DNA of 64,000 nt from Anaerolineaceae bacterium. GTDB lineage: Bacteria; Chloroflexota; Anaerolineae; Aggregatilineales; Phototrophicaceae. The DNA lies in the NCBI GenBank assembly GCA_002699585.1, contig PABP01000014.1, forward strand, positions 744,001 to 808,000, written 5' to 3'. Made by a program: the position numbers and the translations under genes. The notes beneath the pieces were generated by a model. The model was not told where the DNA came from. It made no database searches and worked only from the letters and a program-made list of their open reading frames with translations. Shown piece after piece: positions 47,712-58,517 of this stretch; the first letter of the stretch is position 1; every line of letters begins with the position of its first letter.

Positions 47712-48542
47712 TCAGAGTGCTCCTAAGAATGTCGTGATGTGCGGTTCAGTCTCGTCCCAATGGGTCATAAAGAAGACATGATCGTCATAGGGCATTTGGA
47801 CCGTCTGCAAGTTGTGGGTATGCTGAGCTACAAAAGCGATATCTTTATCGCGCATAAGGCCACTTCTCCTGAACTGTGCGGGCATCAGCAACACGGGGCA
47901 GGTGATGGCTTCTAATGTGGCAGCAAAATCAAACCCGCCTAGACCGCGACTTTCTATGGCCAATTTTACGGCTCTTGGGTCTAAACACTGGTATTGTTTG
48001 GCGAGTTGTCGCAACGTGTTTTCGTCGGCTTCAGGTTCCAATTGGCGGCAGGCTTCGAGGATGACTTCATAGGGTGGATTCTGGCTAATAAGGCCATATA
48101 ACATGGTTAGCCCGATATTGAGATCGGGCAGATCGGTGAGAGGTAATTCGCGCATAGACAGAGGTGGGTCGAGCAGGACAAGGGCACGGACAGCATCGCC
48201 GAGTTGTGCCCCCACACCCATGGCGGTCATCGCTCCCAGAGAATGCCCGACAATGACAGTTGGCTGGTCAATGTTGCTCGTGATGAACGCGACAATGTCG
48301 TTGACAAAATCGACAATGTGATAGGCATTTTCATCGGCTGCATGGCTGGATTTACCATGCCCGCGTAGGTCAATGGCATATAGATGCCAAAGGGCTTCGT
48401 AATGGGCGATGACTGTATCGTCCCAAGCCTGACGCCATCCCGTTATCCCATGTAGCAAGACCATCGGATCGCCATTATTCGGGCCTTCACCGTAACTCAG
48501 AGTGATGTCGCCAACTTTAAATGTTTTTTCCAAAAGTGCCAT
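47712..48542 (-). CDS. Alpha/beta hydrolase, tandem paralogue 1
   Basis: A 276-aa hydrolase with LHGITG (oxyanion loop, about 30), GHSLGAM (nucleophile Ser, about 100) and a C-terminal PYDDHVFFMTHWDE segment carrying the likely catalytic His. Same length as, and gaplessly alignable to, the next gene (48596), with more than half of positions identical by eye. Both share the unusual DDH near the end. ATG start with GGTGAG upstream. Likely an esterase or lactonase-type enzyme; substrate unknown. Confidence 0.87.
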   Translation of the reverse strand: MALLEKTFKVGDITLSYGEGPNNGDPMVLLHGITGWRQAWDDTVIAHYEALWHLYAIDLRGHGKSSHAADENAYHIVDFVNDIVAFITSNIDQPTVIVGHSLGAMTAMGVGAQLGDAVRALVLLDPPLSMRELPLTDLPDLNIGLTMLYGLISQNPPYEVILEACRQLEPEADENTLRQLAKQYQCLDPRAVKLAIESRGLGGFDFAATLEAITCPVLLMPAQFRRSGLMRDKDIAFVAQHTHNLQTVQMPYDDHVFFMTHWDETEPHITTFLGAL

Positions 48543-48595
48543 TTTCTCACCCCTCTCGAAAGAATATGTTAATCCTGTCTCATATTGACGTGCCG

Positions 48596-49426
48596 TTACA
48601 AAGCTTCTAAGAACGTTGTGATATGCGGGTGCGTTTCATCCCAATAGGTATGGAAGAAGCCGTGATCATCATAAGGCATCTTGACCGTTGTTAGGTTGCG
48701 TGTGTGTTGGCTGACAAATGCTGCATCCTCGTCACGCAGACTGCCACTTTCTCCGAATTGTGCGTGCATCAGCAACACGGGGCAGGTGACATCATCGAGC
48801 GCCTCGCCGAAGTCGAAGCCTTCCAGAATGCGGTCTTCTATCGCGATTTTGACTGTTCCCGGTGATAGGCTGTGGATTTGGGTGGCCATTGCATGCAGCA
48901 TTTTCTCGTCGCCGGGTGGGACCATCTGGCGGCAGATTTCCACGACTTGTTCGTATGAGGGCCGATCTTTGAGGATGCCATACAACTGTGTGAACCAGGC
49001 ATTGGCCCCGTGCAGGTCGGCGGTTGGCAGCTCACGGATTGCCAGGGGTGGGTCCAGCAGGATGATGGCGCGGACCCCATCGCCCAGAGCCGCACCGACA
49101 CCGATAGCGGTCATCGCCCCTAATGAGTGCCCGACAATGACGGGCGGCTGGTCGATTTCACTATTGATGAAGGCGACGATGTCTTTTACATAATCGACGA
49201 TGAGATAGGCGTCTTCGGCGGCGGCATGGCTGGATTTGCCATGACCACGCAGATCGATGGCGTACTGCTGCCAGAACGGACCATACTTGGCGACAAAGGT
49301 ATCCTGCCAGGATTGACGCACGCCCGTCAACCCATGCAGCAAAATCATCGGTGGGCCGTTATCCGGGCCTTCGTCATAACTCAGGCTGATCTCACCCGCT
49401 TGAAAAGTCTTTTCTAAGAGTGCCAC
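48596..49426 (-). CDS. Alpha/beta hydrolase, tandem paralogue 2
   Basis: A 276-aa paralogue of the gene downstream: LHGLTGVRQSW (residues about 30-40), GHSLGAMTAIGVG (about 100), PYDDHGFFHTYWDE at the C-terminus. It starts at GTG (GTGGCACTC), whereas the paralogue uses ATG at the same place; a GGGGG ribosome-binding site precedes it. The duplicates share the strand and are only about 50 bases apart, consistent with recent tandem duplication. Confidence 0.87.
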   Translation of the reverse strand: MALLEKTFQAGEISLSYDEGPDNGPPMILLHGLTGVRQSWQDTFVAKYGPFWQQYAIDLRGHGKSSHAAAEDAYLIVDYVKDIVAFINSEIDQPPVIVGHSLGAMTAIGVGAALGDGVRAIILLDPPLAIRELPTADLHGANAWFTQLYGILKDRPSYEQVVEICRQMVPPGDEKMLHAMATQIHSLSPGTVKIAIEDRILEGFDFGEALDDVTCPVLLMHAQFGESGSLRDEDAAFVSQHTRNLTTVKMPYDDHGFFHTYWDETHPHITTFLEAL

Positions 49427-54500: not shown

Positions 54501-54765
54501 AGACTCTCAGTACCACTTTTTGGACATTATAGGGCATACCCAGGCCTAGTGTAGGCGAAGTTCCATAAGAGAAACGTATCTATCCCCGTTATGTATACGC
54601 CGCCAGCCGTGTACAGGTTGTCATGGGTTGGGTAATCGTAGGGTTGGTGTGCATCCCAGGGCGGTTCGATGGTATACAACTTCCCCAATTGTAATTAATG
54701 GAATCCTATAGGATGTAGTACAGTTGGTAGCGGATTAACAATCTACTTTTTTGAAAGAAATTAAC

Positions 54766-57363
54766 ATGACAGATTACTTTAATACATCCATTTCTAAAGG
54801 TGAACTGATCAAACCCTGGCTGATGCTGGGACCGTTTTATGAGGATGTTTCCGCGCAGGTGGAAGGCCTCTCTCTTTTTGAGAACGTGAGTGGGGCTGTG
54901 GGGCGCCCGGTCATGGCAGAAGTCGCTGAGGAAGCGGCTGAGTTGCTGGCTATCTCCCCTAAAGAAGGCGATCCGGCCACTTTCCGGGGCAAATCCGGCT
55001 ATTGGAATTTTGTGCGGCGGCCTGATGAATACCTGGCATGGGGCACGTATAACATTTCCAATCACCTGGGATCGGTTTTTCTTTCGACGATCATCACGCC
55101 GGAAGAAGCCGGGACACGTCGCTGGTCCCTGGCCCATATGATGGCCGAGCATGTCTTCGTCGCCATCAATGGCAAAATCGTATGGGATAATCGCAAAATC
55201 CCCTTTGAAAAGCCCTCTGGTTTGAAGGAATATAGCTTTGAAGCCGACCTGCAACCGGGTGAAAATGTGCTCTCGGTGGGCTTGTTCCGGTTGGCGAGGA
55301 TGGCCCAGGTAGGTTGCCGCCTGCAAGTCGATACCGACATGGAAGCGCGTGTTGACCTCAATATGCCCATTGAAAACCGCATCGCCATTGAAGAATCGGT
55401 ACGTAGCATCCGCCTGGAACGGGATATTTTTTACCCTGAACACCCCATTGGCTTCTCTGTTGGGCAAAACGCCGATGGCGGCATCATCAAAGCGGAATTG
55501 ACCGAACCGGGTGGCGAAACCCTCACCGAAATTTCCGATGTCAAAATTGGCGATGTGATTTTACGCAAAGCCACGACCAATGGGACGGGCGCGGTTTCTT
55601 TCGCCAATGGGACCGATATACCCGATGGCGCGTATCAAATTCATTGCACATGGCTGGACGCGAACAAGCAGTTCATTACATCAACAACCTATGATATTCG
55701 TGTTGTAACTCCTGTCGCGCCCTTGCCCGGTTATGACCATATGGCCGAACGCAAACAGAAAGCCCTGGCGCACTATACAAACGACACAGGCGGAGATCGG
55801 ACTATCTGGGGGCCGGTGGCCAGCTATGCGCTCGGTCGTTATGATGAGGTGGATGAGGAATTGATTGCCAAAACCTGCCGATTCATTGCAGATCGCAAAG
55901 ACTGTGCCGATTTTGCCATTCAGGGCCTTTTGCGGCTGATGTACTGGGAAAATGAGGAGCAGCACCTCAGCCCTCAGATCAACGCCATGATGAAAGATAC
56001 GGTGCTGGGCTTCAAATATTGGATTGATGAACCGGGCGATACCGTCATGTACATGGGATCTGAAAATCACCGTCTGCTCTTCCATGTCGCGGAGTGGATG
56101 GCGGGGCAGCTTTTCCCGAATGACATCTTCACCAACACCGGCCAAACCGGGCTTTTCCATGCCCTTAAGGGCCAATACTATATCTCGGAGTGGTTACGTC
56201 AACGCGGGCGTTTTGGCTTCAATGAATGGCACTCCAATTCCTATTATCCGATCTGCTTTGCGCCCTTAATCAACGTGTATGATTTTTCCCAATACGAGAA
56301 CGATAAAATCCTCACCATCGGCTCGCTGGCAAAAGATGTGCTGGATATGATGTTTTTCAATCTGGCCGCTGATAGCTATCAAGGCATATTCGGCACAACA
56401 CATGGGCGCAGTTATGGCGTCAATCTAAAGTACCCGGACTTTGAAGGCACGACCGCGACCTGTTGGTTGTTGTTCGGCGTGGGTTCCATGGTAGCCGGGA
56501 CCAGCGGCATGGCCCCGGTTTCGATTGCCAGCAGTAGCTATGAACTGCCGCCGATCCTGGCCAAGATGGCGACGGACGATCAGGCTGTCATTCACTCGAA
56601 AATCCGGCAGGGGCTGATGAAAGCGCAAGATCAACACGCCTTTTTCACCGTCTACCGCACCCCGGATTACATGCTATGCGGCTTGCAGGATCATAAGAAG
56701 GGCCAGAACAGCGATGCCATCATGCCAGGACAGGTGACGTTGGGCAATAAAGCGGTTATTTTCTGGTCAGCACCGCGCACCAGCAGCGAAGGCTCTGGGT
56801 TGCGCCCGGATTACTGGTCAGGCAGTACCAGCCTGCCGCGTGTCATCCAGCATAAAAACGTCCTGTCCCTGTCCTATCAATTGCAGAATTTTGCCTGGAT
56901 GTCGCACTGCTTCTTCGAGCAATCGCGTTTTGATGAAGTCCGAGTGCAAGATAATTGGGCCTTTGCTCGCGTGGGTGCCGGATATGTCGGCATCTACTCT
57001 CAGAATGGCCTGAAGCTGGGCGAAGATGGCCAATATGCCGGACGTGAATTGCAATGCCCTGCATCTGAAAATACATGGATTGTGGAATGCGGGCGTCAGG
57101 CGGATTGGGGCGATTTTGATGCTTTCGTAGCGGCCTTATCTGCTGCAAAAGTCACCACAAACGCGGGCGCAGTCAGCTATGAATCGCCGTCGGTAGGGAC
57201 GTTCGTCACCGGGTGGGCTGCCAAGCCCACGATTGATGGCGAAGCCGTGCAGCTCCGGGATTATCAACTTGTAGAAAGCGATTGGGCTTACAGTCGCTTC
57301 GGCTCCGGGGAAATGACGCTGCGTTATGGTGATGACGCCTACCATCTCTGGTTTAATCAATAA
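54766..57363 (+). CDS. 865-aa protein, possible carbohydrate-active enzyme, unclassified
   Basis: The start at 54766 (MTDYFNTSISKGEL) was preferred over the ATG at 54751; a ribosome-binding site is not clear for either. Residues 1-220 appear to be a beta-sandwich sugar-binding-like domain (WNFVRRPDEYLAWGTYNISN; AEHVFVAINGKIVWDN). About 220-340 is a further beta domain (HPIGFSVGQNADGG). About 345-680 is alpha-helical with many aromatic and polar motifs (MYMGSENHRLLFHVAEWMAG; GRFGFNEWHSNSYYP), consistent with an (alpha/alpha) toroid as in polysaccharide lyases and glycosidases. No signal peptide. A Gfo/Idh oxidoreductase follows. Confidence 0.7.
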   Translation: MTDYFNTSISKGELIKPWLMLGPFYEDVSAQVEGLSLFENVSGAVGRPVMAEVAEEAAELLAISPKEGDPATFRGKSGYWNFVRRPDEYLAWGTYNISNHLGSVFLSTIITPEEAGTRRWSLAHMMAEHVFVAINGKIVWDNRKIPFEKPSGLKEYSFEADLQPGENVLSVGLFRLARMAQVGCRLQVDTDMEARVDLNMPIENRIAIEESVRSIRLERDIFYPEHPIGFSVGQNADGGIIKAELTEPGGETLTEISDVKIGDVILRKATTNGTGAVSFANGTDIPDGAYQIHCTWLDANKQFITSTTYDIRVVTPVAPLPGYDHMAERKQKALAHYTNDTGGDRTIWGPVASYALGRYDEVDEELIAKTCRFIADRKDCADFAIQGLLRLMYWENEEQHLSPQINAMMKDTVLGFKYWIDEPGDTVMYMGSENHRLLFHVAEWMAGQLFPNDIFTNTGQTGLFHALKGQYYISEWLRQRGRFGFNEWHSNSYYPICFAPLINVYDFSQYENDKILTIGSLAKDVLDMMFFNLAADSYQGIFGTTHGRSYGVNLKYPDFEGTTATCWLLFGVGSMVAGTSGMAPVSIASSSYELPPILAKMATDDQAVIHSKIRQGLMKAQDQHAFFTVYRTPDYMLCGLQDHKKGQNSDAIMPGQVTLGNKAVIFWSAPRTSSEGSGLRPDYWSGSTSLPRVIQHKNVLSLSYQLQNFAWMSHCFFEQSRFDEVRVQDNWAFARVGAGYVGIYSQNGLKLGEDGQYAGRELQCPASENTWIVECGRQADWGDFDAFVAALSAAKVTTNAGAVSYESPSVGTFVTGWAAKPTIDGEAVQLRDYQLVESDWAYSRFGSGEMTLRYGDDAYHLWFNQ

Positions 57364-57527
57364 GGTGATGTCATCAAAGTGATGTCGTAGGGCCTCGTGG
57401 GCAAGAATCCGGTTTTCAGATCAAGGACTTCCATACACACGTCTTGCCCATGAGCCTTTGCCTTTGTCTGTACTTGAAGGCACAATAGCTCTTGAAACAA
57501 CAACACACATTACGGAGAGATCACTTT

Positions 57528-58517
57528 ATGGACCCGATACGCTGGGGTATATTGTCGACAGGGAATATTGCCAACCAATTTGCCAAGGGCTTACAGGTAC
57601 TAGACGACGCCGAACTGGTCGCAGTCGGCTCCCGCTCGCAATCGAGCGCCGATGAATTCGCTAAAAAATATGACATTCCGCACAGCCACGGCAGCTACGA
57701 AGCGCTGGCCAACGATCCCGATGTGGATGTGATTTACATAGGTAGCCCGCACAGCCATCACCACGAGCACATGATGCTGTGCTTGAACGGTGGCAAGCAT
57801 ATTCTGTGCGAGAAGGCTTTTACCCTGACTGCCGCCGAAGCCGAGGAATGCATCAATCTGGCCCAGGAAAAGGGCCTTTTCCTGATGGAAGCTATGTGGA
57901 CGCGCTTCTTGCCCGGTATCGTCAAACTGCGCGAATGGCTGGCCGATGGCAAGCTGGGCAAGGTCGAGTACTTCCGTAGCGAGTTCAGCTTTCATGGGAC
58001 GTTCAACCCGGAGCATCGCCTGTGGAACCCAGAATTGGGCGGCGGTGCGCTGCTCGACCTGGGTGTTTACAATGTGGCGATGGCGTCAATGGTCCTCGGC
58101 GTGCCGGATAGTGTCGATAGCCATATTTTGAAAGCCCCCACCGGGGTGGATCGTCAGACGACGATGTTCTTTAAGTACGACGATGGAGCTGCGGCCACCC
58201 TCATGTGCAGCTTTACGGCCAATACGCCCATGCAGGCGCTCATCATCGGCGATAAGGGCTGGGCACGTATCGAACACCGTTTTTATGAAGGCAAACAGAT
58301 CACGCGTCAGATTCATGGCCAGGATGCGGAAGTCTTTGAAGTGCCGTATGAATCGACGGGCTATCAGCACGAAGCGGCAGAAGTCATGGCCTGTATCCGC
58401 GCGGGCAAGCTGGAAAGTGACATCATGCCGCTGGACGAAACATTAGCTCTGATGAAGCTCATGGATGGCGTGCGCCACCAGTGGGGCATTAGCTATCCAG
58501 TGGAGCAACAGGGCTAG
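57528..58517 (+). CDS. Gfo/Idh/MocA-family oxidoreductase
   Basis: A 329-aa NAD(P)-dependent dehydrogenase. The start MDPIRWGILSTGNIAN follows ACGGAGAGA; an upstream in-frame ATG was rejected. The Rossmann motif is GILSTGNIAN (about 7-16), IGSPHSHHHEHM is the conserved middle block and the catalytic lysine lies in CEKAFTL (usual form EKPxxx), with the C-terminal GGGALLDLGVYNV. The family oxidises or reduces sugar derivatives. It follows the 865-aa protein gene by 164 bases and may act in the same pathway. Confidence 0.93.
   Translation: MDPIRWGILSTGNIANQFAKGLQVLDDAELVAVGSRSQSSADEFAKKYDIPHSHGSYEALANDPDVDVIYIGSPHSHHHEHMMLCLNGGKHILCEKAFTLTAAEAEECINLAQEKGLFLMEAMWTRFLPGIVKLREWLADGKLGKVEYFRSEFSFHGTFNPEHRLWNPELGGGALLDLGVYNVAMASMVLGVPDSVDSHILKAPTGVDRQTTMFFKYDDGAAATLMCSFTANTPMQALIIGDKGWARIEHRFYEGKQITRQIHGQDAEVFEVPYESTGYQHEAAEVMACIRAGKLESDIMPLDETLALMKLMDGVRHQWGISYPVEQQG

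Follow-up and report, generated by a model that had tools for sequence, protein, structure and literature searches.

The gene considered here lies on the forward strand of the window, the whole 64,000-nucleotide stretch of DNA that was analyzed. It is a single open reading frame that begins with an ATG at 54766 and closes with a stop codon ending at 57363 (Table 1). The product, P0001, has 865 aa, and the length and coordinates given in the initial annotation are borne out by the reading frame and by the closest ortholog (L002), which is 68% identical over its full length and comes from a second genome within that family. Inspected by eye, the N-terminus of P0001 shows no obvious signal peptide, which supports the earlier proposal that the protein acts in the cytosol. 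A Gfo/Idh/MocA-type dehydrogenase gene starts 128 bases downstream, as had been noted; however, it is not a conserved partner, as the gene of the closest ortholog, at locus L073, has a LacI regulator next door. The dehydrogenase was therefore rejected as a functional partner. No sugar operon surrounds the window gene, and past the Gfo/Idh gene the rest looks unrelated. Elsewhere in the window (47712-49426, minus strand), two similar genes for alpha/beta-hydrolases of 276 aa stand in tandem and apparently arose by local duplication.

P0001 was described at the outset as a member of an unrecognized family, and database searches agree. Zero Pfam models score above cut-off, and the single row below it is PF22994 (residues 93-173, E 0.00057). 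There is no match to the Hepar_II_III_N/C and Alginate_lyase models (PF05426, PF07940), to the PcRGLX models, or to PF07470 (GH88/GH105). NCBIfam returns chance-level rows only, none above cut-off, and PDB sequences give nothing meaningful with P0001 alone or with a 36-row family profile. Thus, no strong match to a defined family emerged from these three collections. Ten diverse relatives likewise have no Pfam match above cut-off, and a literature search, which included the accessions of six family members, found no report on the family.

Table 1. Features of the P0001 gene, its product, and the downstream neighbor
Feature	Coordinates	Strand	Basis or remark
P0001, whole gene	54766..57363	+	ORF and full-length orthologs
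GAAAG, ribosome-binding-like	54753..54757	+	8 bases 5' of the ATG; putative, from reading the sequence
Domain 1 (residues 10-191), GH2 beta-glucuronidase N-terminal sugar-binding-like beta-sandwich	54793..55338	+	5z1b_A, Z 9.6, rmsd 3.3, 127 residues
Domain 2 (residues 192-314), Ig-like beta domain	55339..55707	+	Model strands; GH2 rows covering 10-314 in order
Domain 3 (residues 323-602), (alpha/alpha) toroid with the putative catalytic cleft	55732..56571	+	Predicted models
Domain 4 (residues 609-865), C-terminal antiparallel beta-sandwich	56590..57360	+	Predicted models
Glu433-Asn434-His435, proposed carboxylate neutralizer and base	56062..56070	+	Profile alignment, conservation, table of PMC12088678
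EWHSNSY (487-493), proposed catalytic Tyr493	56224..56244	+	Profile alignment, conservation
Gly547-Arg548-Ser-Tyr550, proposed substrate-carboxylate contact	56404..56415	+	G547, R548, and Y550 in 46/46 rows
Met653, at the column of a His that is the candidate third catalytic residue of the PL12/15/17/21 type	56722..56724	+	Alignment; column is His in 38/46 family rows
Gfo/Idh/MocA-type dehydrogenase	57492..58517	+	Internal ATG at 57525; below every NCBIfam equivalog cut-off

Relatives of P0001 and their distribution

A search with the single protein finds a match in 7 of 41 near genomes. The A1 profile (E<=0.001) matches in 32 of 154 genomes of the order and in 12 of 400 sampled from the phylum, counts that take in weak partial matches of ~17-60 bits, possibly to other proteins. 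Five full-length relatives from Chloroflexota MAGs show 53-60% best-segment identity. The one other genome listed for the window's genus has no match to the family, so P0001 looks like an accessory gene. Among plasmids, a relative is found in 199 of 72,556 records, mostly from Rhizobium (123) and Pseudosulfitobacter (40), with others in Subdoligranulum and Haladaptatus, and Photobacterium is among the matches of a search with the Shinella protein. A search of viral contigs gave no relative. The tree built from 48 core sequences places P0001 and its orthologs in a group of eight on a long, fully supported branch. The alignments left out L030, L031, L041, L044-L047, and L049, which repeat places already represented, and L063, which is cut by a contig end; L043, apparently the same protein as L014, is present in A2 and A3 and was removed as a duplicate from the conservation count.

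Some members have only ~640 aa and do not feature the two N-terminal domains. One of these is encoded in the window genome (G000) itself, at ~99951-101819 of contig 3 (L072 8916-10826), where it comes after SIS-like, KduD-like SDR, and MetE-like genes as judged by eye; the genome has two KduI/IolB-type genes, one of them ~13 kb from this short paralogue. Short members also occur on the Haladaptatus plasmids (L023 and L127), within an archaeal sugar cluster rich in Gfo/Idh genes, and these copies suggest transfer between bacteria and haloarchaea. Two members that are only distantly related to each other lie close by on one contig in L016 (1510-4017 and 7959-10571), where they flank radical-SAM and GH67 genes, and likewise in L084 (7702-10350 and 10749-13373). 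L085 and L086 have a common order of transporter, GH42-like, and GHL6-like genes around degenerate members. Further Chloroflexota proteins of 550-860 aa (L033-L037, L042, and L064-L067) give weak partial matches to the family profile. They were rejected as a bridge to a known family, since none has a Pfam match above cut-off, and they possibly belong to a wider unclassified lyase-like superfamily.

Predicted fold and candidate active site

AlphaFold2 models were obtained for the full-length protein (pLDDT 87.6, pTM 0.89) and for the core, residues 312-865 (pLDDT 89.1, pTM 0.92). The order of two beta domains followed by a helical toroid, as set out in the initial annotation, is reproduced by the model, and the sugar-binding-like character of the first domain is supported by its match to the GH2 beta-glucuronidase N-terminal sandwich. 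The list of three domains was incomplete in that it missed the fourth, the C-terminal beta-sandwich. Several GH2 chains align over residues 10-314 in order with a large rmsd, as for two domains in a different relative placement. The ~640-aa members do without these GH2-like and Ig-like domains at the N-terminus, which are therefore regarded as accessory.

In a Foldseek search of the core against the PDB, the sole three matches at E<=0.001 are all lyases (3afl, 9o3q, and 9irq), the best being 3afl (Atu3025, PL15). VIA re-aligns just the chains that Foldseek ranks high, and among the matches listed for the core every one of the 50 rows is a toroid/beta-sandwich lyase or human dermatan sulfate epimerase. 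The lyases listed comprise heparinase III and II, PL8 hyaluronate/chondroitin/xanthan lyases, alginate lyases, GAGases, and ODV-E66; PL27 and PL33 are absent from the folds listed, an absence that excludes nothing. The best row is 5jmf (Z 12.3, rmsd 6.5, 380 residues), and others include 1cb8_A (Z 10.6, rmsd 5.2, 398 residues), 4nei_A (Z 10.1, rmsd 5.7, 422 residues), and the epimerase 6hzn_A (Z 9.3, rmsd 6.1, 439 residues). According to the tool note, Z values up to ~13 can come from an arrangement common among helical proteins, so the support lies in the agreement of the rows and their coverage of both domains more than in Z. The predicted structure has the toroid followed by an antiparallel beta-sandwich that characterizes the PL8/12/15/17/21/23/35/39 group. 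Comparison with toroid enzymes, the check proposed with the initial annotation, thus reveals a core resembling the toroid/beta-sandwich uronate lyases.

Two segments had been singled out as probable active-site or cleft motifs, and both are present (ENH at 433-435 and SNSYYP from 490). This assignment gains support from conserved residues within them, as Asn434-His435 and Tyr493 appear to align with the catalytic Asn/His and Tyr of lyases of the heparinase II/III type. Proteins with Pfam Hepar_II_III_C matches were looked for across 121 related genomes, and the alignment A4 was built from 16 of the sequences retrieved. Comparison of the core family profile with A4 by hhalign gives a probability of 0.45% and a P of 0.13, which is not significant by itself; the single alignment pairs N434, H435, and Y493 with the N, H, and Y that are invariant in A4. 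Among 200 column shuffles, 8 scored as high and none put even two of these three residues onto matching conserved columns. With A5, another Hepar-like profile, the family profile did not produce this pairing.

Conservation was counted over 46 rows, from which the degenerate L019 and L020 had been removed beforehand and in which L059 was kept. E433, S490, G547, R548, Y550, and H714 are present in all 46, and D379, D382, D421, N434, H435, E487, and Y493 in 45. L059, in which ENH and the Tyr are also gone, is the exception for N434, H435, E487, and Y493. L019 and L020 lose E433, N434, H435, E487, Y493, G547, R548, and Y550 and keep W419, W476, P595, W684, P691, H714, and W771, a pattern that fits loss of a putative active site on a retained scaffold. 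All three proteins (L019 of G185, L020 of G105, and L059 of G548) have wholly lost the proposed site while keeping the scaffold and are likely pseudoenzymes. His714 was rejected as a catalytic residue and is treated as structural because every row, the degenerate ones included, retains it.

The spacing of these residues can be set beside that of characterized lyases. As tabulated in PMC12088678, the Asn-to-Tyr spacing is 54 in heparinase III, the exo-heparinase (PL15), and GAGase II, 57 in Alg17c, 53 in the PL39 enzyme, and 59 in the PL8 chondroitin AC lyase; tabulated members having both residues carry them 53-63 apart, and in the rows for PL12/15/17/21/35/39 the beta-sandwich His lies 130-166 residues past the Tyr (PMC12088678). 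In P0001 the toroid Asn and Tyr are both found, with a spacing of 59 for Asn434-Tyr493 and 58 for His435-Tyr493, counted along the sequence without superposition. The layout of PL8, with a His nine residues before the Tyr, was dropped, since P0001 has none nine before Tyr493 and the His four before is unconserved in the family. Column 653, assigned from sequence alone, lies 160 residues past Tyr493 and is the probable site of the beta-sheet His. It is occupied by His in 38 of the 46 rows. P0001 and L002 carry Met instead, five alphaproteobacterial rows linked to kduI carry Thr, and the Subdoligranulum row carries Asn; among all 48 rows, Met653 is common only to P0001 and L002. If the column is right, the family can dispense with a His at this position, and catalysis by the window enzyme would depend on His435 and Tyr493.

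Gene neighborhoods of the family

GH88/GH105 enzymes act on an unsaturated uronide that a lyase must first produce. A GH88/GH105 gene (PF07470-type) adjoins the family gene or lies within ~6.5 kb of it in 11/11 bacterial plasmid genera examined, which are 11 of those among the 199 plasmid records. It was located by annotation in Pseudosulfitobacter, Rhizobium, Thioclava, Shinella, Pannonibacter, and Gemmobacter, and by tblastn in Subdoligranulum, Ciceribacter, Pararhizobium, Photobacterium, and Allorhizobium, as well as in R. ruizarguesonis. The same stretches hold kduI in seven of the 11 genera and kduD in five, and often a sugar importer as well; kduI is the immediate neighbor in Pseudosulfitobacter, Shinella, Pannonibacter, Gemmobacter, and Ciceribacter. 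The GH88 type of R. leguminosarum (E<=1e-60) is found in 221 plasmid records, versus 199 for the family. The records per genus for the GH88 type and the family are nearly equal, with 124 and 123 in Rhizobium, 40 and 40 in Pseudosulfitobacter, 12 and 12 in Sinorhizobium, and 5 and 5 in Neorhizobium. The GH88-type listing includes enterobacterial records, one of them annotated as RhiN, a rhamnogalacturonide degradation protein. Among records listed for both genes, the gap is at most 6.5 kb in 26/26 and at most 1 kb in 19; since near-copies abound among these records, a tally by genus is the fairer measure.

In R. leguminosarum, GH88 is followed by GH28, and the Thioclava operon is adjoined by a rhamnose gene cluster; together these point to rhamnogalacturonan-like substrates, and an oligosaccharide of this kind is the best guess for the substrate of the alphaproteobacterial branch. 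The GH88 proteins of L022 and L024 are named beta-galactosidase BglB by NCBIfam, above cut-off, and so the GH88 partner may not be a pure unsaturated-uronide hydrolase. No GH88 is annotated near the family gene in the two Haladaptatus records, one of which has a heparinase II/III gene ~8 kb away.

Within Chloroflexota, GH88 is found at two of the 24 loci examined. In L014, a member of the window clade, it lies directly downstream with a PL22 oligogalacturonate lyase nearby; in L016 it is ~7 kb away, and GH67 and GH4 are also present. L017 has GH106-like and GH38 genes, and L015 has GH130. In L075 the family gene is directly followed by a PcRGLX-like gene, which the PcRGLX Pfam models match, and PL22 is present as well. 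Six further loci (L076, L077, L078, L081, L082, and L083) encode a solute-binding protein that shares 44-49% identity with its counterpart in the Shinella operon. The window genome has no strong GH88, just three weak matches to PF07470.

A putative uronide lyase among known families

The P0001 family is probably a cytosolic uronide lyase that stands outside the Pfam, NCBIfam, and PDB sequence families tested. From the predicted fold, the conserved residues, and the computed neighborhoods, we infer beta-elimination, the roles of the residues, and the substrate. The fold and probable mechanism are of an already known kind, and the sequence family is unclassified in Pfam and NCBIfam. An acidic oligosaccharide, probably from sugar chains of the plant or algal type, would enter through a sugar transporter and be bound in the cleft formed by the toroid and the C-terminal sandwich. 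There, Asn434, with Arg548, would neutralize the uronate carboxylate, His435 and/or Tyr493 would abstract the C5 proton, and Tyr493 would donate a proton to the leaving oxygen. The chain would thereby be cut by beta-elimination to leave a 4,5-unsaturated uronide, and in most relatives outside Chloroflexota the neighboring GH88/GH105 would remove the unsaturated sugar, which would then pass to KduI and KduD. The initial annotation had left open a new glycosidase or a lyase family and had proposed a screen that included uronates. Chemistry on acidic sugars is supported, and of the two classes the fold, motifs, and neighborhoods favor the lyase.

A glycoside hydrolase on the toroid scaffold, using the conserved acids Glu433, Glu487, Asp421, and Asp379/382 to trim uronide oligosaccharides before GH88, is unlikely. 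Toroid glycosidases do exist, GH127/GH146-type rows appear in Foldseek at E 0.04 or worse, the acids are nearly or fully invariant in the family, and GH28, GH67, GH4, GH106-like, and GH38 occur among the neighbors of family genes. However, the best structural matches are all lyases or the epimerase, and the Asn-His and Tyr appear to coincide with lyase residues. The downstream GH88/KduI genes also call for a product that is unsaturated, and the annotation of the Pseudosulfitobacter, Shinella, Pannonibacter, and Gemmobacter stretches, taken from incomplete gene tables, shows no lyase besides the family member. A uronyl C5-epimerase is a very unlikely reading: dermatan sulfate epimerase 1 has the same fold, as the 6hzn_A row shows, but the family resides in catabolic operons with kduI, and an epimerase alone yields no unsaturated sugar for GH88.

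For the window gene itself, support from context is weaker than for its relatives. With no strong GH88 in the genome and Met653 at the probable His column, this copy is less typical of the family. That it has drifted from an otherwise lyase family toward an altered or weaker activity, carrying Met653 and lacking a GH88 partner in its genome, is nevertheless very unlikely. The confinement of Met653 to P0001 and L002 and the lack of a surrounding sugar operon agree with drift, but every other proposed active-site position is intact in P0001, one kduI-linked branch is likewise without His at column 653, and the clade members L014-L017 sit with GH88, PL22, GH67, GH4, GH130, GH106-like, or GH38 genes.

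Returning to the lyase, we lean slightly toward a broader proposal. The family would be a new cytosolic polysaccharide-lyase family of Chloroflexota, Proteobacteria, Bacillota, and haloarchaea that supplies the lyase step to GH88/KduI operons with no recognized lyase. In this scheme the window branch, with the beta-sheet His given up along with its GH88 partner, may act on another acidic glycan or complete the product by a different route, and pseudoenzyme branches with the active site lost would have been kept in the genomes of two families. At the lyase step, many alphaproteobacterial GH88 plasmid operons, those of rhizobial crop symbionts among them, show no more than a "hypothetical protein." With a candidate lyase, these operons could be annotated and the uronate lyases would gain a family, and the degenerate relatives form a natural comparison set with a presumably dead active site.

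Among known lyases, heparinase III (PL12; 5jmf, 4mmh, and 4fnv) gives the best VIA rows and, like P0001, combines a toroid with a beta-sandwich, with the slightly shorter Asn-Tyr spacing tabulated for it. Unlike heparinase III, P0001 has no Pfam Hepar_II_III match and no signal peptide seen, and it adds the N-terminal GH2-like and Ig-like domains. The oligoalginate lyases of PL17 (Alg17c, 4nei) and PL15 (Atu3025, 3afl) share the fold with P0001 over ~420 residues and, as tabulated, the pattern of Asn-His or His plus Tyr (PMC12088678); however, P0001 has no PF05426/PF07940 match, and the family's neighborhood is of the GH88/KduI/pectin type and not the alginate type. The PL35 GAG lyases (GAGase II and VII) have a two-domain core like that of P0001 and a tabulated catalytic set of Asn, Tyr, and His (PMC12088678), whereas a PDB sequence search with the profile detected no relation to the P0001 family. 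GAGases are described as having toroid and beta-sheet domains only, which differs from the four domains of P0001 (PMC12088678).

The PL26 exo-rhamnogalacturonan lyase PcRGLX possibly does the same job as the P0001 family, and a PcRGLX-like gene comes right after the family gene in L075; P0001 itself matches no PcRGLX model. The P0001 family profile has no match among PDB sequences, a result that bears on PL27 (BT0263, BACCELL_00875) only if an entry of that family is among them, and the likeness is to the published description of the rhamnose-glucuronate lyase BT0263, which has an N-terminal beta-sandwich and an (alpha/alpha)6 barrel (PMC8377490). The BT0263 reaction desaturates a glucuronate, comparable to the uronide desaturation proposed for P0001.
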